A program made the position numbers and the translations under genes. The notes beneath the pieces were generated by a model that was not told the DNA's origin, searched no databases, and saw nothing but the letters and a program-made list of their open reading frames with translations. Of a stretch of 64,000 bases of DNA, positions 38,011 through 47,064 are shown in pieces (position 1 is the first letter of the stretch; every line of letters begins with the position of its first letter). The stretch is from an uncultured Verrucomicrobiota bacterium (GTDB taxonomy: Bacteria > Verrucomicrobiota > Verrucomicrobiia > Methylacidiphilales > UBA1321), in contig CAIPBM010000164.1 of NCBI GenBank assembly GCA_903863295.1, forward strand, positions 62,001 to 126,000. Direction: 5' to 3'.

Positions 38011-39468
38011 CTAAACCTTGATCTTCAGTCCACGACGCCGAAACGTGGGTTGATCGAGATTCTCGCCGCGGTACATCGTCTCGTGGGTCTTTTCAAAACG
38101 ACCCCGCGTGGCTGATTCAAACTGCATCTCCTCCTGCTTGGCGACGAAACGACGGGACGTGCGACCTTGGCTGGGAGTGAGTGCGGGCGCGGGAATGGCA
38201 ACGGGTGTTTCGACCGGGGGCAGGGATTCCGGCTGAACATTCGATTCGTCCTCGCTGACATGATTAATCGCCGTGACCGGCGCAGGCTTGGTCTTGGCGG
38301 GGGAGGCGGGACGCGAGGGCTTCGCTTTGGGGGAATCGGTTACCGCGATCGGTGAAGCAAGCTTGGCGGTCGCTTTCAAATCGGGCATGGGGACGGTGGC
38401 CGTCTGCGGCTTTCTCGCTGGTGTGGCCGGGGGAAAATCCGCTGCGACTTCTGCGGGAATCGCGGCGACGGGCGCCGTCATGGCCAGAAGCACGCTCATG
38501 CGGACCTTGTCGTGATTTTCTTCATCCAGGCTCGCGCTGGTGGCGATGGGAATATTGACGGGAAGGAGATCCTTGAGGGCGCTGACCAGTTCCTGGACAT
38601 CGGAGAGGCCGAGGTCGCGGGTGCCGCTGACCGCGACGATGGCGTGGTCGATCTGCTTCCAAATCTTTTCATCGGCAAGGAGCGGGCCCTCGAGTAATTC
38701 GCCGATCAGGTCTTCCGTGCAATCACGGATACTTCCCTCGACATGGGCTACCCAGCAATTTTCGAGCACTTCGGAACCGGCATAGCGACCGTAGAGGCTT
38801 CGGACGTCGGCGAACGAGAGCTGAATCAAGCCGCGCTTGCAGACGACTTGCGAGAGAGCCTGCGCCGTCTTGGCCAGCAGCTCATGCATGAGATGAAAAC
38901 CGTGCCGGATATTTTTCCGGGTCGCATCGTTGTCCGCCAGCCGGTCGCTGGAAAGGACGAGGACGCTATCGGCTTCCCGGCGCATCTCGGCGATGGCCAG
39001 GGTCGATTTTTCGCGCCGGGCCCAGCCTTCAAAGGCAAAGGGCTGCACGCCTATGACGATGACTTTGGCTCCGGCTTCGTGACCCAGTTCAATCAGGCGC
39101 TCCGCCACCGCGACACCGGTGGAACCAGCGAGACCCAGGACGAGGATGATGAAGTCGCATCCCCGGGAAACCGCACTGAGCTGAGCTTCTTCGAGCGCGA
39201 CAATTTCGCGCGCAAGCTGGAGGTCTCCGTTGCAGCCGAGGCCATGAACCAGGCTTTGCCCCAGCAGGTGGCGATTGGGCACGACCGATCCTTCGATGGC
39301 CAGTTGATCCGAATCGAAAACCCATAGGTCTTGTCCGGGACGACCGTGGAGAACAAGTTGATCGCAGACCGCCGCACCGGTCTGGCCGAGTCCGATGATC
39401 CGCACCCGGTCGGGAAACAGTTGGTCGGCCTTGTCTGCGAACGGTCCGTCTTGGGTGAATTCGATCAT
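38011..39468 (-). CDS. ftsZ: Highly derived FtsZ with degenerate GTP-binding loops
   Basis: 485 residues, preceded by AAAGGAG. It is recognisable as FtsZ by its place after ftsQ-ftsA and by RVRIIGLG (21-28), PFAFEG (143-148), the SFADVRSLYG segment (218-227) and the C-terminal peptide ENLDQPTFRRRGLKIKV, which matches the FtsA-binding tail (LDxPxFxR). But the key loops differ from the consensus. T1 GGGGGN reads GQTGAA. T3 GLGAGANP reads GLGCNGDL. The tubulin signature GGGTGTG reads LAGSTGV (113-119). T7 NxDxxD reads QLSFAD (216-221), so only the last Asp remains. A Pro/Ala/Lys-rich linker (about 340-440) precedes the tail. GTPase activity is doubtful, but the intact frame and ribosome site argue against a pseudogene. 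Confidence 0.8.
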   Translation of the reverse strand: MIEFTQDGPFADKADQLFPDRVRIIGLGQTGAAVCDQLVLHGRPGQDLWVFDSDQLAIEGSVVPNRHLLGQSLVHGLGCNGDLQLAREIVALEEAQLSAVSRGCDFIILVLGLAGSTGVAVAERLIELGHEAGAKVIVIGVQPFAFEGWARREKSTLAIAEMRREADSVLVLSSDRLADNDATRKNIRHGFHLMHELLAKTAQALSQVVCKRGLIQLSFADVRSLYGRYAGSEVLENCWVAHVEGSIRDCTEDLIGELLEGPLLADEKIWKQIDHAIVAVSGTRDLGLSDVQELVSALKDLLPVNIPIATSASLDEENHDKVRMSVLLAMTAPVAAIPAEVAADFPPATPARKPQTATVPMPDLKATAKLASPIAVTDSPKAKPSRPASPAKTKPAPVTAINHVSEDESNVQPESLPPVETPVAIPAPALTPSQGRTSRRFVAKQEEMQFESATRGRFEKTHETMYRGENLDQPTFRRRGLKIKV

Positions 39469-39482
39469 GGTATCATTCTCCT

Positions 39483-40718
39483 TTAGATGAGTCTCATGCT
39501 GGCGAGGGCTTTTCGTAAGGACTGGCCGACACGGGCGAGACCGCGACGGGAGGGGAGCTCCAGTTCAGCCTGGCGCGCGTATTGCAGGAGTCCCAGGATT
39601 GTACTCAAATCGGGACGGCGCCCGTAGTTTTGATCGCCATCGAAAGGAGATTGGTGGGCCAGTTCGACCGGGCAGGGGAAGATCTGGGTGGCCAGTTCGA
39701 CAAGGCCCTTGACCTGGGAGGCGCCGCCGGTGAGGTAGATGGTTCCGGCAAAATCCGCCCAGAAGGGCGCTTGCTGCAGGTCTTCCAGGATGATCTCAAA
39801 AATCTCCGCCTGACGGGCCTGCATGATGGTGTTGAGAGAGGCCCGGTAGAGTTTCCGTTCCTCAAAATTATACGCGCCGGGGAGGGTGATGCGGTCGTCG
39901 CCTTCCTCTGGATCGAGAATCACGGAGCCTTCGTTCTTTTTCAGCAGTTCCGCCTTGGCGTACGGAATTTTCAAGCCCGAGACGATGTCATTGGTCAGGT
40001 GATCGCCGCCCACCCCGAGCACGCCGGTGTGAACCACCGCACCTTTTTGGTAGGCGATATAATCCGAGATACCGCCGCCCAGGTTGATGACCACAGCACC
40101 GAATTGCTTCTGGTTGCGCGTAAGCACGGCCTGGGCCGTGGCATAGGAACTCAACGCGTAATTCTTAACGTCGATGCTGAGTTCCTTGACACAGCGGATG
40201 GTGGTTTGGAGCCGCGTGGCCAGTCCGTAGACCTGATGAAAATGGGCGGTGAGCTGCTTGGAGGCCAGCCCGATGGGATTGTCGGTGGTCGATCCGTCAT
40301 CAAGGACGTAATGCTGCAGGAGATGATGGACGATGGCGTGGTCGGTGGGGAGTGGCTGAGAGGCTGCCATGTCGTGGAGCTCCTGCACATGTTCGTGCGT
40401 GATTTCGTCGCCATCATTATTGATCAAGGTGGTGACGCGCGTATTGGATGAGCGGACGTGCGCACCGGATATCGCGAGATAAACCTCGGCGATGACCACG
40501 TCCGTCTTCAGTTCCGCCTCGGCCAGGGCGTCCCGCACGCAACCTTGCGCCACTTCGAAATCGACGATCTCGCATTTGCGCACCTGACCCGAGGTGGACT
40601 CGCCGATGCCCAGCAACGCGAGCGTGCCATCGGGACGAATTTCTCCCACGGCGGCGGCGACCTTCGTGCTGCCGACTTCCAGTGCGACAATGATATTGCG
40701 TGATTTTCCCCAGAACAT
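39483..40718 (-). CDS. ftsA: Cell division protein FtsA
   Basis: 411 residues. Actin-fold phosphate loops are visible: ALEVGSTKVAA at the start, VVINLGGGISDY in the middle and IYLTGGASQVKG late. The C-terminal LARVGQSLRKALASMRLI is the amphipathic membrane-targeting helix. FtsA tethers FtsZ filaments to the membrane through the FtsZ C-terminal peptide, which this ftsZ retains. It lies 14 nt upstream of ftsZ and 26 nt downstream of ftsQ. Confidence 0.9.
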   Translation of the reverse strand: MFWGKSRNIIVALEVGSTKVAAAVGEIRPDGTLALLGIGESTSGQVRKCEIVDFEVAQGCVRDALAEAELKTDVVIAEVYLAISGAHVRSSNTRVTTLINNDGDEITHEHVQELHDMAASQPLPTDHAIVHHLLQHYVLDDGSTTDNPIGLASKQLTAHFHQVYGLATRLQTTIRCVKELSIDVKNYALSSYATAQAVLTRNQKQFGAVVINLGGGISDYIAYQKGAVVHTGVLGVGGDHLTNDIVSGLKIPYAKAELLKKNEGSVILDPEEGDDRITLPGAYNFEERKLYRASLNTIMQARQAEIFEIILEDLQQAPFWADFAGTIYLTGGASQVKGLVELATQIFPCPVELAHQSPFDGDQNYGRRPDLSTILGLLQYARQAELELPSRRGLARVGQSLRKALASMRLI

Positions 40719-40744: not shown

Positions 40745-41602
40745 TTATTGGTAAAAAGTGACGGGAACGTTGTAGTTGGGAGTGAGATCGACGGTGCGAA
40801 TGGTGCGCTGCTGGAAATCGGGATGGTAGATGATCTGCTGGAGCCGGATGAGTTGCTGGTCAATGCAATCAGTCCGGAAGGTGATCGACATGTCGCGTGT
40901 GGTGACCATCGTAATCGAAAGCGGGTCGCTGAGGTTGATGGTGCGGATATCGATCAGGGTGTGGAGCGGCGTGTGATCGATCGCGTCAAGGATCTGGAGG
41001 GCGCAGGCCATGCTGGGCTGTTCAAGCTTGGTGCCCGGCTCAAACTCGGCATTAGTCATGCCGATGATCTCCGGCAACATCTGGGGCGTCTCGTCTTCAC
41101 GCGGCTTGAGGACGATCCCGTCGCGATCCAGGTAAAAGGTCTCCTTGGTTCCGAGGTCGCTGTTCAGGCCGACGATCTTGACCACCGGGATGCGTTCGTG
41201 GATGAGGATGGTAAGCTTGTCCGGGAAATGGCGCTCGACCGTGGCATGCGAAACATAGGGCAGTTTTTCGAGGTCCTTGGTGATTTGAGGCAGGTTCAAC
41301 GTCCAGAGATTCTGCCCTGTTTCGAGACCGGCGGCCTGGCGGATCAGCCGTTCGGAGAAATGGCCGCGAGGCTGAATCTCGATTTCATTCAAGGTGTAGT
41401 GGGGATTGGAATAGAGGGCCTTGTTCAGGATGAAGCCAACCCCAAGATGAAGCCCAAGCCCCACGGCGACGATCATCGCGAGGACCAGTCCGCACCAGAC
41501 CGTGGCCTGCACGACCTGTTTCTGCGAATGCCGCTTCTTGGTCGTGGTGTGCAGAATGTTGATCTGCTTCTGGCGGGAGCGGGAGCGATGGCGGCGGGTC
41601 AT
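40745..41602 (-). CDS. ftsQ: Cell division protein FtsQ
   Basis: 285 residues. A basic cytoplasmic N-terminus (RRHRSRSRQKQ), one membrane helix (about 36-57), a POTRA domain (about 68-140, IEIQPRGHFSERLIRQAAGL) and a beta domain. It links early and late divisome parts. Overlaps ddl by 4 nt. Confidence 0.82.
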   Translation of the reverse strand: MTRRHRSRSRQKQINILHTTTKKRHSQKQVVQATVWCGLVLAMIVAVGLGLHLGVGFILNKALYSNPHYTLNEIEIQPRGHFSERLIRQAAGLETGQNLWTLNLPQITKDLEKLPYVSHATVERHFPDKLTILIHERIPVVKIVGLNSDLGTKETFYLDRDGIVLKPREDETPQMLPEIIGMTNAEFEPGTKLEQPSMACALQILDAIDHTPLHTLIDIRTINLSDPLSITMVTTRDMSITFRTDCIDQQLIRLQQIIYHPDFQQRTIRTVDLTPNYNVPVTFYQ

Positions 41603-42513
41603 GCAGACCTCTCTTTCCGCCGGGCGATCCAGGAGAGTTCAACGATCCTGCGGCAAAGTTGCGGGAAGGAGATGCCGGCGGCAGCGGCTGCCTTGGGGAG
41701 CAAGCTCGTGGCCGTCATGCCCGGAATGGTATTGATTTCGAGGCAATAGGGAAGCGTGTCTTTCTCGAGAAGAAAATCGATGCGGGAATAGACGGCATCG
41801 CCCACCGATTGATGCGCCGCAAGGGCATAGCGCTGGATCAATTCGGTGATTTCCTGCGGAAGGTGCGCAGGGCAAAAGTACTCCGTATTACCCTTGGTGT
41901 ACTTGTTCGTGTAATCGTAGAAACCGGCGAGTGGATGAATCTCGACGATTGGGAGCACCTGGTCGCCAAGGACGCCGACGGTCAATTCCCGGCCCGTGAT
42001 GAGCTGTTCGACAAGGACGGATGAATCGAATTTCAAGGCATCGTTCACGGCGGAGGCGAGTTCCTCCCGGGTCGTGGCGGAGCGTGAGCCCACGCTGGAG
42101 CCCTGGGCGTTCGGCTTGATGAAAACGGGCAGAGGGACGGTGACTTCGTCCAGGCTGTGGACGAGTTGGCCTGAAGGCGTGGGCACGCCGTGGTGACGGA
42201 ACTTTTCTTTCGTCTTTTCCTTGTCGATGGTGATGCGGCTGACCTCGGCTCCCGCGCCGGTGAAGGGGATGCCGCGCGCATTGAGGATGTCCTGGACCTG
42301 GCCGTCTTCGCCGAACGTGCCGTGAAGCGAAATGAAGGCGAGGTCGGTGCCATCGGGAATGACAAAATTCTCGTCTTCCACAATCACTTCGCTCACGTCG
42401 TAACCAGCTTCGCGCAACGCGATGACGCAGGCGGCACCAGTGCGGAGGGAGACTTCACGTTCAGCGGAGGGGCCGCCCATGAGCACGGCAAGTTTGTGAG
42501 GTTGATCGCTCAT
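41599..42513 (-). CDS. ddl: D-alanine--D-alanine ligase
   Basis: 304 residues, the DdlB size class. MGGPSAEREVSLRTG is the first signature; ATP-grasp elements are VFIKPNAQGSSVGS and the closing LEINTIPGMTATSLLPKAA. It makes the D-Ala-D-Ala dipeptide for MurF. One nucleotide separates it from murC-murB upstream, and it overlaps ftsQ by 4 nt downstream. Confidence 0.93.
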   Translation of the reverse strand: MSDQPHKLAVLMGGPSAEREVSLRTGAACVIALREAGYDVSEVIVEDENFVIPDGTDLAFISLHGTFGEDGQVQDILNARGIPFTGAGAEVSRITIDKEKTKEKFRHHGVPTPSGQLVHSLDEVTVPLPVFIKPNAQGSSVGSRSATTREELASAVNDALKFDSSVLVEQLITGRELTVGVLGDQVLPIVEIHPLAGFYDYTNKYTKGNTEYFCPAHLPQEITELIQRYALAAHQSVGDAVYSRIDFLLEKDTLPYCLEINTIPGMTATSLLPKAAAAAGISFPQLCRRIVELSWIARRKERSA

Positions 42514-42514
42514 A

Positions 42515-44809
42515 TTAATTTTCCTCTCCCAGGACGATGACCTCGGTGTGCAGGTCGATCTGGCGCGATTCGCGGGCGCGGCTCTGGATCAGCGCGATGA
42601 GCTGCAGGACGTCCTCCGCGGTGGCGCCCCCGTCATTGACGATGAAATTGCCGTGGACTTCTGAGACTCGGGCCGGTCCGACGGAAAGATTCTTGAGGCC
42701 GAGTTCATCGATCAGCTTGCCCGCTGGCAACGGCCCCGGATTCTTGAAGATGCACCCGGCGCTCGGCGCGGCGGGTTGCGAGGTCCAGCGTTTGCCGGAG
42801 TAGGCCTTGAGCTTTTCGTTGATCTCGTCCTTGGAACTCGGCTTGCCTTTGAGACGGGCGGAAAGAGCAATGTGATTCTGGAAATGAGGCACGCTGCGGT
42901 AATGGATTTCCATCTCTTCTTTTTTGACCTCATGGACATGTCCAAGCAGATCCATGCTACGGACGCTCTCGACCACTTCCATGGTCCAGCCCTGCATGGC
43001 ACCGGCATTCATGCGCAGGGCGCCGCCGAGGTTGCCCGGAATGCCTTCCATGAACTCGAACCCACCGAGGTTGTGCTTGCGTCCATCCGCCACGATCTGC
43101 TTCAGCCGTGCGCCGGCGCCGACCGTGACGTACTCGCCTTCAACTTCAATCCGGCTAAACCAGGGTCGGCCAAGATGCACGCAGAGCCCGAGAATTCCGC
43201 CATCCCGCACGAGGAGATTGCTGCCGCGTCCGATGAAGGTAACCGGAATGGCGCGGTCATGCGCGAAGCGAAGACCGGTCTTGAGGTCTTCTTCGTCCTC
43301 CGGTTCGAACCAGAGTTGCGCGGGGCCGCCGATCCGCATGGTGGTATGCTTGTGCAAAGGTTCGTCCCGCTTGAGAATGCTCTCAGGTTTGATCAGGGCT
43401 TTTAATTCAGTGTACCAGGTCAAACCTTGGGCGAGATGCTGCGCCACGCGATGGATATCGCCCGCGCCGAGGGTGATCACGAGATCGCCCGGTTCGAGCG
43501 CCGCATTGACCGCGCCGCGAAGTCGACCGAGGGTTGGCTCGTAGTGGACTTTCGGGTGATGGGCGGAACGAATCGACTCCGCGACTGATTCGCCGGTGAC
43601 GCCTGCCATGGCCGCTTCGCTGGCAGCGTAAATCTCCGTAATAAAAACTTCCGAGGCGTCCTGGAAAGCGCCGGCGAATTCGCCGAGCAAGGCCTTGGTT
43701 CGCGAATAGCGGTGCGGTTGAAAAAGGGCCAGGACCCGCTTCCAGCCGCTGTTTTTCGCTGCGGCCAGGGTCGCCTTGATTTCGGTGGGGTGATGCGCGT
43801 AATCATCCACCACCATGTAGTCCGCAGAACGATACTTGACCTCAAAGCGGCGTGCGGCACCGCGGAAATCGGCCAGTGCACTCACGATCTGGTTCCAGGC
43901 GACTCCCTTTTCCGTCGCGAGGGCGATCACGCCGAGGGCATTGCACACATTTTGTGCGCCCGGTACGCCGAGCGTCACTTCGCCGAGAAGCTGGCCGCGA
44001 CGCAGGACTGCAAACTTGGAGGAAAAATTCTCCAGCCGGACATCCAAGGCGCGGTAGGTGGCCAAATCGGAAAGACCATAGCTGATGGCCTGCCCGTTAT
44101 GGGAGCAGAGCAGCATGGTGTTCTTGTCGTCCGCGCAATAAATAATGGGGCCCGTGGTGCGTTCGCACAGCGTCGCGAAGACCTGCACGATTTCCTCGAT
44201 GTTGTGATAAAAATCGAGATGCTCTTCCTCAATGTTGAGGATGAGGCTGGCCTCGGGCGCAAAAAGCGCCAGCGTGCCGTCGCTTTCGTCGGCTTCGATC
44301 ACGAAAGGCTTTCCCTCCGTCCACGAGGCATTGCTGCCGAGGAGCGGAACCTGCGCGCCGATGTAGTGGGACGGATTGCGGTCGGCCTGGCGCAGGACGT
44401 GGGTCAACATGGAGGAGGTGGTCGTTTTGCCATGACTCCCGGCCACCACGTAGGTGCTCTTGGTGTCAGCAAGAACGACGAGACATTCCGCCCGGCGTAC
44501 GCAGATAATCCCTTGTTCCACCGCAGCTTTGCGCTCGGCATTTTCGGCCATGATCGCCGATGAGAAAACCACCAGGGCCACGCCTTTGACATGGGAGGCG
44601 GCGTGTCCTTCGAAATATTCGATGCCATCCGGAATGTAAGAAGAGGCCTCTTTCTGCGGTACGAGATCCGAGCCGGAAAGGTGATGGCCTTGTGCCAGGA
44701 GCAGGCGGGCCAGGCCGCTCATCCCGCTGCCGCAAACGCCAATGAGGTGAATCCGTTGCGGACCGCTCTTCAGCAGCGTCTCGAGACGTGTTTTCAATTC
44801 CGGTTGCAT
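42515..44809 (-). CDS. murC-murB: MurC-MurB fusion: UDP-MurNAc--L-Ala ligase plus UDP-MurNAc dehydrogenase
   Basis: 764 residues made of two complete enzymes. Residues about 1-455 are MurC: GVCGSGMSGLA, Walker-type GSHGKTTTSSM, NIEEEHLDFY, DDYAHHPTEI. Residues about 475-764 are MurB: TTMRIGGPAQ, FIGRGSNLLV, GIPGNLGGALRMNAGA and SAGCIFKNP. Where E. coli MurB has a catalytic serine, this protein has Cys (GCIFKNP). MurB makes UDP-MurNAc and MurC adds L-Ala, consecutive steps, so fusion may channel substrate. No frameshift is needed. It overlaps murG by 16 nt. Confidence 0.92.
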   Translation of the reverse strand: MQPELKTRLETLLKSGPQRIHLIGVCGSGMSGLARLLLAQGHHLSGSDLVPQKEASSYIPDGIEYFEGHAASHVKGVALVVFSSAIMAENAERKAAVEQGIICVRRAECLVVLADTKSTYVVAGSHGKTTTSSMLTHVLRQADRNPSHYIGAQVPLLGSNASWTEGKPFVIEADESDGTLALFAPEASLILNIEEEHLDFYHNIEEIVQVFATLCERTTGPIIYCADDKNTMLLCSHNGQAISYGLSDLATYRALDVRLENFSSKFAVLRRGQLLGEVTLGVPGAQNVCNALGVIALATEKGVAWNQIVSALADFRGAARRFEVKYRSADYMVVDDYAHHPTEIKATLAAAKNSGWKRVLALFQPHRYSRTKALLGEFAGAFQDASEVFITEIYAASEAAMAGVTGESVAESIRSAHHPKVHYEPTLGRLRGAVNAALEPGDLVITLGAGDIHRVAQHLAQGLTWYTELKALIKPESILKRDEPLHKHTTMRIGGPAQLWFEPEDEEDLKTGLRFAHDRAIPVTFIGRGSNLLVRDGGILGLCVHLGRPWFSRIEVEGEYVTVGAGARLKQIVADGRKHNLGGFEFMEGIPGNLGGALRMNAGAMQGWTMEVVESVRSMDLLGHVHEVKKEEMEIHYRSVPHFQNHIALSARLKGKPSSKDEINEKLKAYSGKRWTSQPAAPSAGCIFKNPGPLPAGKLIDELGLKNLSVGPARVSEVHGNFIVNDGGATAEDVLQLIALIQSRARESRQIDLHTEVIVLGEEN

Positions 44810-45888
44810 GACGCTTCAATCTCCTCCGCCACGCGCCGCGCGGCATCTTCCCCGGCTAATTTTTGGGCGGCCCCGGCCATCTTGCTTCGTAGTTCGCGAC
44901 CCGCGAGAATCTCAGAAACGGCCTGATGGAGCGCTTCCGGCGTCGTCTTGCTTTCAATCATCATCCGGGCTGCACCCGCGCGCTCGAAAATACGCGCGTT
45001 GTAGGATTGATGATCGTCTGCGGCTGCCGGGTAGGGAATCAAAATGGAAGGAAGGCCGTAATGGCTCAACTCGGTCAGCGAGGCCGCGCCGGAACGGCTG
45101 ATGACCACGTCAGCCAGGCTGTAAAAATGTTCCATCTGGGTCGAGAAGGCCTGCACGACGGCGATGAGCCGCTGACGACGGTAATTGATTTCCGCGATGT
45201 TGACGTCGGCCTGGCCAGTCAGGTGAATAAATTGCACCTCCTCGCGCTGATTATGCCACATCGGGAGTGTTTTGAGAATCAGTTCATTGATGCCATGAGC
45301 GCCCTGGCTGCCACCCATGACGAGGATGATCGGCTGGTTGGGATTGAGGCCGAATTTCTCTGCCGCCACGGCCCGATCAATCCGCTCGAGACCGCGCCGG
45401 ACGGGAGTGCCGGTGACCACGCAATGGGCCTTGCGGAGATAGTTCGCGCAACCCTCAAAACCGAGCAGCGTCTTATTGACCCACGGGGCGATGACGCGGG
45501 TGACGCGTCCGGGAATGGCGTTCGATTCGTGGATGAGCGTGGGTAATTGGAGATGGCGTCCCAGTAGCAGGGGAATCGCGCTGGTGAACCCGCCCATGCC
45601 GACGACGGCGGTCGGTTGGAAATCGCGATAAACCTGACCGCACTCGCGCCAGCTCCGGACGAGACTTAATCCAAAGGTGAAAACACGCGGTGAAAGAAAA
45701 CCGGGCCAACCGATGCCGGGCAACGCATGGGCCTGTTGTTCCCCGGCACCCTTCAGGGCAATGGCATCAATCTGCTTCGGAGAAACGAGCAGAAGCGTAT
45801 CATGACCCCGCTGGCGCAGTTCTTCCGCCACGGCCAAACCGGGGAAAAGATGGCCTCCCGTACCTCCGCATGCGATGGCAATTTTCAT
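44794..45888 (-). CDS. murG: UDP-GlcNAc:lipid I transferase MurG
   Basis: 364 residues. GGTGGHLFPGLAVAEEL (N-terminal lipid/nucleotide loop), HESNAIPGRVTR, MGGSQGAHGIN and SRSGAASLTEL are standard MurG motifs. It makes lipid II from lipid I at the inner membrane face. It sits between ftsW and murC-murB. Confidence 0.95.
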   Translation of the reverse strand: MKIAIACGGTGGHLFPGLAVAEELRQRGHDTLLLVSPKQIDAIALKGAGEQQAHALPGIGWPGFLSPRVFTFGLSLVRSWRECGQVYRDFQPTAVVGMGGFTSAIPLLLGRHLQLPTLIHESNAIPGRVTRVIAPWVNKTLLGFEGCANYLRKAHCVVTGTPVRRGLERIDRAVAAEKFGLNPNQPIILVMGGSQGAHGINELILKTLPMWHNQREEVQFIHLTGQADVNIAEINYRRQRLIAVVQAFSTQMEHFYSLADVVISRSGAASLTELSHYGLPSILIPYPAAADDHQSYNARIFERAGAARMMIESKTTPEALHQAVSEILAGRELRSKMAGAAQKLAGEDAARRVAEEIEASCNRN

Positions 45889-45906
45889 GGTTTGTTCGGG
45901 ATAGAA

Positions 45907-47064
45907 TTACATTCTCACGCTGTAGGCCGTCACGGCCAGCGTGGGGGTACTGTGCGTTTGGTAAATGCCTTGGCGGTGCAAGTTGAAAAGAATACCGATG
46001 GCGGCGAGACAAGTCAGCAAATTCGAGCCGCCATAACTGATGAAAGGAAGGGGGATTCCCTTGCAGGGCATGAGCGAGGTCACCACGGCCAGGTTCATCA
46101 GCGCCTGTAGCGCGATCATGAGCGTGATGCCAGTGCCGAGGAGCACCCCGGCGGGGTCGGGCGCGTGGATGGTGATCCAGCCACTGCAGAGCACCAGAAT
46201 GAGAAAAGCGAGAACCACCGAGAGCGTGATCCACATGCCCAGTTCTTCCCCGATGATGGGGAAAACGAAATCGGTATTCACCTCAGGCAGCCAGTACATT
46301 TTTTGGCGGCTGTTCCCGAGACCAAGTCCGGTCAATCCACCGGAGCCCAGAGCGATCAGTGCCTGAAGTTGTTGCCATTGTTTGGCATCCACGGGCGAGT
46401 TGCCGAGATGGGGATGCAGGAACGCCATCCAGCGCGCGAGCCGTTCCGGTTTCAGGAACGTAAGCGTGAGCAAGCCAGCAAAGCCGAGAACCGGAACGGG
46501 CAGGAGATAAATCATCCGGCTTCCGGCCACGAACATGATCGAGACGACGATGGCCAGCATGATCGCGGTCGTGCCGAAGTCCTCCTGCTTGATCATGAGG
46601 AGAAAGAGCGGGGCCACGATGAGCATCGGCCAGAGAAAGCCCTTGAGGAATTCGCCCACGCGACGCTGATTTTTCCCCATCCACCACGACAGGAAAAGAA
46701 TCAGCGCCAGCTTGGCGAATTCCGAGGGTTGATAGGTCCATCCGCCGAAGCTTAGCCAGCGTGGGGAGCCGTTGATCCGGCGTCCCACATGCGGAATAAG
46801 GCAGAGGATCAACAGGATGCAGGCAAGACCGAGCGCGTACGGCGCGAAGCGCAACAACTTCTGGTAATCGTAACGCGAGAGAAAAACGCAAACGATTCCG
46901 CCGATGGTGAGCCACGCGCATTGTTTGCGCAGGTTGCTGTAGACAGCGCTCATGTCATGGGCGGCGAGGACGGCGCTGGTGCTGGAGAGCATCACCAGGC
47001 CCAGGGCAATAAGCCCGAGCATGGTAATCAGCAGCAGGTAAGCGACGTTTCGTTGCATGAACAC
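45907..47064 (-). CDS. ftsW: SEDS glycosyltransferase FtsW
   Basis: 385 residues with about ten membrane segments. The LMLSSTSAVLAAHD beginning, the loop with GLGNSRQKMYWLPEVNTDFVFPIIGEE and the closing GIPLPFISYGGSNL are SEDS signatures. It polymerises lipid II at the septum with the PBP encoded at 53871. RodA is possible by family, but the location supports FtsW. Confidence 0.93.
   Translation of the reverse strand: MFMQRNVAYLLLITMLGLIALGLVMLSSTSAVLAAHDMSAVYSNLRKQCAWLTIGGIVCVFLSRYDYQKLLRFAPYALGLACILLILCLIPHVGRRINGSPRWLSFGGWTYQPSEFAKLALILFLSWWMGKNQRRVGEFLKGFLWPMLIVAPLFLLMIKQEDFGTTAIMLAIVVSIMFVAGSRMIYLLPVPVLGFAGLLTLTFLKPERLARWMAFLHPHLGNSPVDAKQWQQLQALIALGSGGLTGLGLGNSRQKMYWLPEVNTDFVFPIIGEELGMWITLSVVLAFLILVLCSGWITIHAPDPAGVLLGTGITLMIALQALMNLAVVTSLMPCKGIPLPFISYGGSNLLTCLAAIGILFNLHRQGIYQTHSTPTLAVTAYSVRM

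Follow-up and report, generated by a model that had tools for sequence, protein, structure and literature searches.

The only ftsZ gene found in the 94%-complete genome of the soil bacterium from which the window derives (the window being the whole stretch of DNA analysed, 64,000 nucleotides long) closes an intact dcw operon, is under purifying selection and encodes a conserved C-terminal tail, and its catalytic T7 loop carries replacements of both N207 and D209, as do nearly all FtsZs of its order. We consider it moderately probable that this gene is an ftsZ ortholog passed down by vertical inheritance in the order Methylacidiphilales, and that its product would serve as a working, FtsA-anchored scaffold with GTP hydrolysis absent or very slow. 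An intact frame, a constrained sequence, a conserved tail, a broken T7 loop and a partly kept pocket form a pattern that fits a working scaffold; we infer that hydrolysis has been lost, that the filament is slow or static, and that the protein binds FtsA and is used in division.

The host genome is a draft of 194 contigs that total 4.1 Mb, with a completeness of 93.7%. Most of its close relatives that have named records are MAGs of Candidatus Methylacidiphilales or Verrucomicrobia. The ftsZ reading frame runs from 39468 to 38011 on the minus strand and encodes 485 amino acids from an ATG start; the initial annotation, which left the strand unstated, was right that the frame is intact and preceded by an AAAGGAG site. 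The operon reads ftsW, murG, murC-murB fusion, ddl, ftsQ, ftsA and ftsZ on the minus strand, with ftsZ as the last gene, directly after ftsA, and facing a homoserine kinase gene on the opposite strand:

38011..39468, minus strand: ftsZ with a non-canonical active site (alignment; sole PF00091 match in the genome)
39478..39484, minus strand: Shine-Dalgarno sequence AAAGGAG, overlapping the ftsA stop codon (sequence)
39483..40718, minus strand: ftsA, adjoining ftsZ and upstream of it in the operon (TIGR01174, 298 bits, above the cut-off)
40745..47064, minus strand: ftsQ, ddl, murC-murB fusion, murG and ftsW, the remaining dcw operon (profile matches)

The murC-murB gene fusion lies at 42515-44809 of the window; the same fusion has been reported for Verrucomicrobium spinosum.

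The protein matches the Tubulin/FtsZ GTPase domain profile PF00091 with 64.6 bits (cut-off 33) and retrieves solved FtsZ structures in a phmmer search (E 2.8e-25). Foldseek with the predicted model returned FtsZ chains with TM up to 0.82, which confirms the FtsZ fold only. The equivalog profile TIGR00065 (NCBIfam) scores 119 bits, under its cut-off of 295 but still the best family by far, and the FtsZ_C domain PF12327 falls below its cut-off as well (19.4 vs 27 bits). A canonical second ftsZ elsewhere in the genome, which the initial annotation had raised, was not found: the host genome holds a single PF00091 match, and neither among its genes nor among the Pfam matches of the window FtsZ is there a Tubulin_2 domain (PF13809; FtsZl1 paralogs). 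Across the order, 52 of the 62 genomes have a PF00091 match, exactly one each except for one genome (G008), which has two divergent FtsZ genes. There, the copy in the dcw cluster beside ftsA (L184) retains 4/13 active-site residues (L110) and the other copy 8/13 (L011); a division of labour between the two is possible.

To read the active site, the window FtsZ was aligned to the FtsZs of E. coli MG1655 and M. tuberculosis, to another solved FtsZ and to 126 collected sequences. Residue numbers in the text are those of E. coli FtsZ (the S. aureus number is the E. coli number + 1), and those in the following lines are of the window protein:

39370..39393, minus strand: T1 loop GLGQTGAA, residues 26-33 (alignment)
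39109..39129, minus strand: T4 loop AGSTGVA, residues 114-120, equivalent to GGGTGTG (alignment)
38947..38949, minus strand: Ser174, equivalent to guanine contact N165 (alignment)
38884..38886, minus strand: His195, equivalent to guanine contact N186 (Bacillus D187) (alignment)
38806..38823, minus strand: T7 loop QLSFAD, residues 216-221 (alignment; invariant in the genus)

The alignment bears out the GQTGAA reading of T1, which appears as GLGQTGAA, and that of T7, where NVDFAD is replaced by QLSFAD (N207 to Q, D209 to S), with D212 retained. T4 is divergent, as had been claimed, but the segment given for it, LAGSTGV, was one residue out of register: GGGTGTG aligns to AGSTGVA, which departs from the tubulin signature [SAG]GGTG[SAT]G and keeps G106, T108 and G109. 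Beyond what had been noticed before, both positions 165 and 186, which we take from known FtsZ structures to be the guanine contacts, have changed (N165 to S, N186 to H), as have Q47 in the K+ site (to L) and G71 in T3, the catalytic-water loop (to N); N43 is replaced by D. D45, E138 and R142, of the ribose contact, arginine finger and Mg shell, are in place. In total, 6 of the 13 scored active-site positions are canonical in the window FtsZ, compared with 13/13 in E. coli, M. tuberculosis and the further solved FtsZ and with 11.6/13 on average in an Opitutales-like family (f12). The initial annotation's statement that the GTPase consensus is lost thus holds for the T7 catalytic pair but was too strong for the pocket as a whole, where D45, T108, G109, E138, R142 and D212 remain.

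These six residues count against our preferred reading. The GQTG of T1 resembles the T1 loop of tubulin and, with the six residues, makes it plausible that phosphate and ribose are still bound; the sequence suggests that a nucleotide phosphate may still be held, and a different geometry could allow its hydrolysis. The protein could then still be a GTPase, rewired rather than disabled, in which D212 and R142 together with a water, or other T7/H8 residues, hold the catalytic water. Strong purifying selection on the GTPase part is in keeping with this, and an extra Asp at 211 (NxGxDD) occurs in most sequences of families f11, f13 and f15; position 211 is Ala in the window, however, with no shifted acid visible, and the window FtsZ has replaced N207, D209, Q47, G71 and the two guanine contacts. 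The roles of D46, Q48, G72, R143, N208, D210 and D213 (S. aureus numbers) are known from structures and mutants of S. aureus FtsZ, in which D210 positions the catalytic water and N208L, D210N and D213N each abolish assembly (PMC8936486). We regard a rewired GTPase as unlikely, if to be taken seriously. The same mutants also bear on the scaffold reading, since a working filament in the window organism would need compensations when the equivalent single mutants of S. aureus do not assemble. Two AF2 models of the window FtsZ, each from a 7-sequence alignment, reached pLDDT 56 and 62 and pTM 0.49 and 0.56, with a T7 pLDDT below 50, and are too weak for pocket geometry.

Within the genus, the T7 loop is invariant in all 7 sequences, T7 and helix H8 together are nearly so, and the stretch GLIQLSFADVRSLYGRYAGSEVLENCW is nearly invariant as well. 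Median dN/dS of ftsZ, in values that are rough since dS is near saturation, is 0.105 in the GTPase part, 0.10 in the C-domain, 0.39 in the linker and 0.078 in the C-terminal 50 residues, compared with 0.052 for ftsA. The tail reads LDQPTFRRR, as the initial annotation had recognized in describing LDQPTF followed by basic residues, and is conserved across the order:

38014..38103, minus strand: conserved C-terminal motif GRFEKTHETMYRGENLDQPTFRRRGLKIKV, which includes the FtsA-binding peptide (alignment; dN/dS ~0.08 over residues 436-485)

The low TIGR00065 score and the draft state of the genome, with its 194 contigs, could point to a decaying gene or an assembly artefact. However, the frame is intact, the gene has no second copy, dN/dS is ~0.1 and the T7 substitutions are identical in 7/7 genus sequences; we consider such an origin extremely improbable. 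A sequencing error or random decay does not account for a T7 loop that never varies among the genus members, and this invariance and the dN/dS together rule out a pseudogene.

The loss of D209 is not special to the host genome and is apparently old and clade-wide. In the order Methylacidiphilales, methanotrophs included, D209 is absent from 50/51 FtsZs and N207 from all 51. One of its families (f2) has a largely intact pocket with D209 replaced by H in 6/7 sequences, and another (f4) has HLGVAE as its T7. The pocket is most eroded in the methanotrophs (f9, recognized by PF02461 methane monooxygenase genes), where the T7 alignment is uncertain because the segment that follows the loop has been rebuilt too. 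Family codes come from our genome set, and names such as Opitutales-like and Akkermansiaceae are inferred from genome traits. In families outside the order, Gly stands at position 209 in every sequence of f11 (7), f15 (5), f13 and f21, and the motif NxGxDD is that of most f11, f13 and f15 sequences. Sequences of Akkermansiaceae, Verrucomicrobiaceae and related families (L082, L085, L089, L113 and L143-L153) all have Gly in place of D209, and the rest of the pocket is largely canonical. Families f12, f17, f19 and f10 keep D209 and have D212 replaced, mostly by T, A or S (Thr or Ala in f12, L072-L097, and others), and a few scattered losses are also seen elsewhere in the phylum. Both acids are kept in only 11 of 107 verrucomicrobial FtsZs (12 of 108 tree rows with E. 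coli), a count affected by uneven sampling and by a T7 alignment that is weaker where the rows diverge most.

In a quick tree from which the trait columns were left out, the order is a clade (SH-aLRT 100), and a branch with a support of 83 (SH-aLRT) sets apart the order together with the class families without Asp at 209 (f11, f13, f14, f15, f18 and f21). The exception is a long-branch row (L028) with D209, possibly a reversal or a misplacement. The f11 genome G084 belongs to Akkermansia muciniphila or to a near relative of it, since its Amuc_1100 gene closely matches the solved Amuc_1100. Some f15 genomes carry extra, stronger PF00091 matches (L068-L071), which were not hit by the FtsZ queries and are consistent with BtubAB of Prosthecobacter.

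On the scaffold reading, FtsZ would still build a membrane-anchored division scaffold, with a conserved interface and with an LDxPxF tail that should bind FtsA, and hydrolysis at the subunit interface would be absent or very slow because this branch of the Verrucomicrobiota lost the catalytic T7 Asp209 at an early stage. D209 may have gone first, from an intact pocket, a stage still seen in Akkermansiaceae, Verrucomicrobiaceae and family f2 of the order. The result of this step would be a structural, rarely hydrolysed GTP, much like the one in the non-exchangeable site of the alpha/beta tubulin dimer, where the GTP of the interface faces a T7 without a catalytic acid and is not hydrolysed; tubulin, unlike FtsZ, forms a heterodimer there, and the likeness is one of analogy only. 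In the window genus, erosion would then have reached guanine recognition, T3 and the K+ site as well, and the filaments may therefore bind nucleotide weakly or with altered specificity.

Taken further, this erosion could have left a scaffold in the genus that is independent of nucleotide, assembling into filaments or a non-filamentous adaptor either by protein contacts only or with a different ligand bound at a His-His site. In 6 of the 7 genus members N165 is replaced by S, H or Q together with N186 by H, the T3 residue G71 and the K+ site residue Q47 are altered, and the pocket has decayed further in the Methylacidiphilaceae. A His-His pair in place of the guanine-contact Asn pair occurs in L012, in L014 and in the window genus, with His-His present again in family f3, and apparently arose twice. 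However, one genus member keeps N165 and N186, E138, R142, D45, T108 and G109 persist, and the joint change at 165 and 186 does not reach significance when tested with independent pairs (p 0.25), so that co-evolution of the His-His pair is suggestive and not proven. A nucleotide-independent scaffold seems improbable to us.

FtsA, a second NTPase of the divisome, has a catalytic change in the same clade. Asn replaces its phosphate-2 aspartate (E. coli D210) in the window and in every FtsA seen of f1, f3, f5, f8 and f9g15, and Asp is found in f2, f4, f6, f7, f9g11, f9g13 and all FtsAs read outside the order:

40083..40085, minus strand: FtsA position equivalent to E. coli D210, Asn, codon AAC (alignment and codon reading)

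E. coli FtsA(D210A) neither complements nor forms rings; D210N was not part of that study (PMC10213515). The initial annotation had offered a second protein as the source of filament dynamics, for which we see no candidate: FtsA becomes less likely since it has lost this aspartate in the window clade, and searches of the host genome detected neither SepF nor ZapA. It is tentatively conceivable that both FtsZ and FtsA lack their catalytic aspartates in one branch that includes the host, and that a large part of the Verrucomicrobiota divides with a non-hydrolysing FtsZ, with septation proceeding without FtsZ treadmilling.

FtsZ also evolves faster than FtsA (40% vs 73% identity between the window genus and genus g3) and is the less conserved of the two within most order families compared, the opposite of the Opitutales-like family. 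This would suit an FtsZ that has been relegated to a minor or different role through FtsA while another system drives division, for which Nitrosopumilus offers a precedent, with FtsZ degenerate in T4 and T7 and Cdv proteins thought to divide the cell (PMC3684127). However, the dcw position, the tail and purifying selection have all been kept, Tubulin_2, SepF and ZapA were not found in the host genome, and V. spinosum, another member of the phylum, depends on ftsZ as an essential gene (PMC12283558), although the T7 residues of that species lie outside this comparison. We judge relegation quite improbable.

Bacterial division is usually taken to depend centrally on GTP hydrolysis and treadmilling by FtsZ. 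A sole FtsZ without the catalytic Asp, under selection and with its tail kept, is a natural test of whether division needs hydrolysis, and the same state in the gut bacterium Akkermansia and the methanotrophs of the order (closed genomes; genera cultured according to the literature) makes this test practical. The pattern also offers intermediate stages on a path by which Planctomycetes and Chlamydiae could have arrived at division without FtsZ.

Verrucomicrobial FtsZ has been reported as divergent before (PMC9871819, PMC1845146, PMC12283558). For Methylacidiphilum infernorum, a relative at the order level, Hou et al. (2008; PMC2474590) stated an "accelerated evolution" of ftsZ and not of ftsA, reported without data; our FtsZ vs FtsA conservation quantifies that statement, and no residue-level account of catalytic loss was found in their paper. 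Accelerated ftsZ evolution was thus already known, while in the open literature searched no report was found of the loss of T7 aspartates or of the FtsA D210 change. The methanotroph family to which we compare M. infernorum is eroded further than the window FtsZ. The FtsZs of V. spinosum and Prosthecobacter, of the same phylum, are divergent with a GGGTGSG signature (PMC1845146, PMC12283558); in the corresponding family f15 the pocket is largely intact and D209 is Gly. Yee et al. termed V. spinosum FtsZ canonical, and a term search of their paper found no mention of T7 or catalytic residues.

With the canonical FtsZs of E. coli, S. aureus and M. tuberculosis, the window protein shares the fold, the dcw position after ftsA, E138, R142, D45, T108, G109 and D212, and a linker with an LDxPxF tail, but it replaces the equivalents of N43, N207, D209, Q47, G71, N165 and N186 and scores under the TIGR00065 cut-off. 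The FtsZ of Ca. Thiosymbion oneisti is a natural FtsZ of low GTPase activity, in which, unlike in the window protein, the catalytic and GTP-binding residues are conserved (PMC8953583). The FtsZ of Nitrosopumilus maritimus resembles the window FtsZ in its degenerate GTP-binding and T7 motifs, but belongs to a thaumarchaeon with Cdv proteins and did not polymerise in yeast (PMC3684127).
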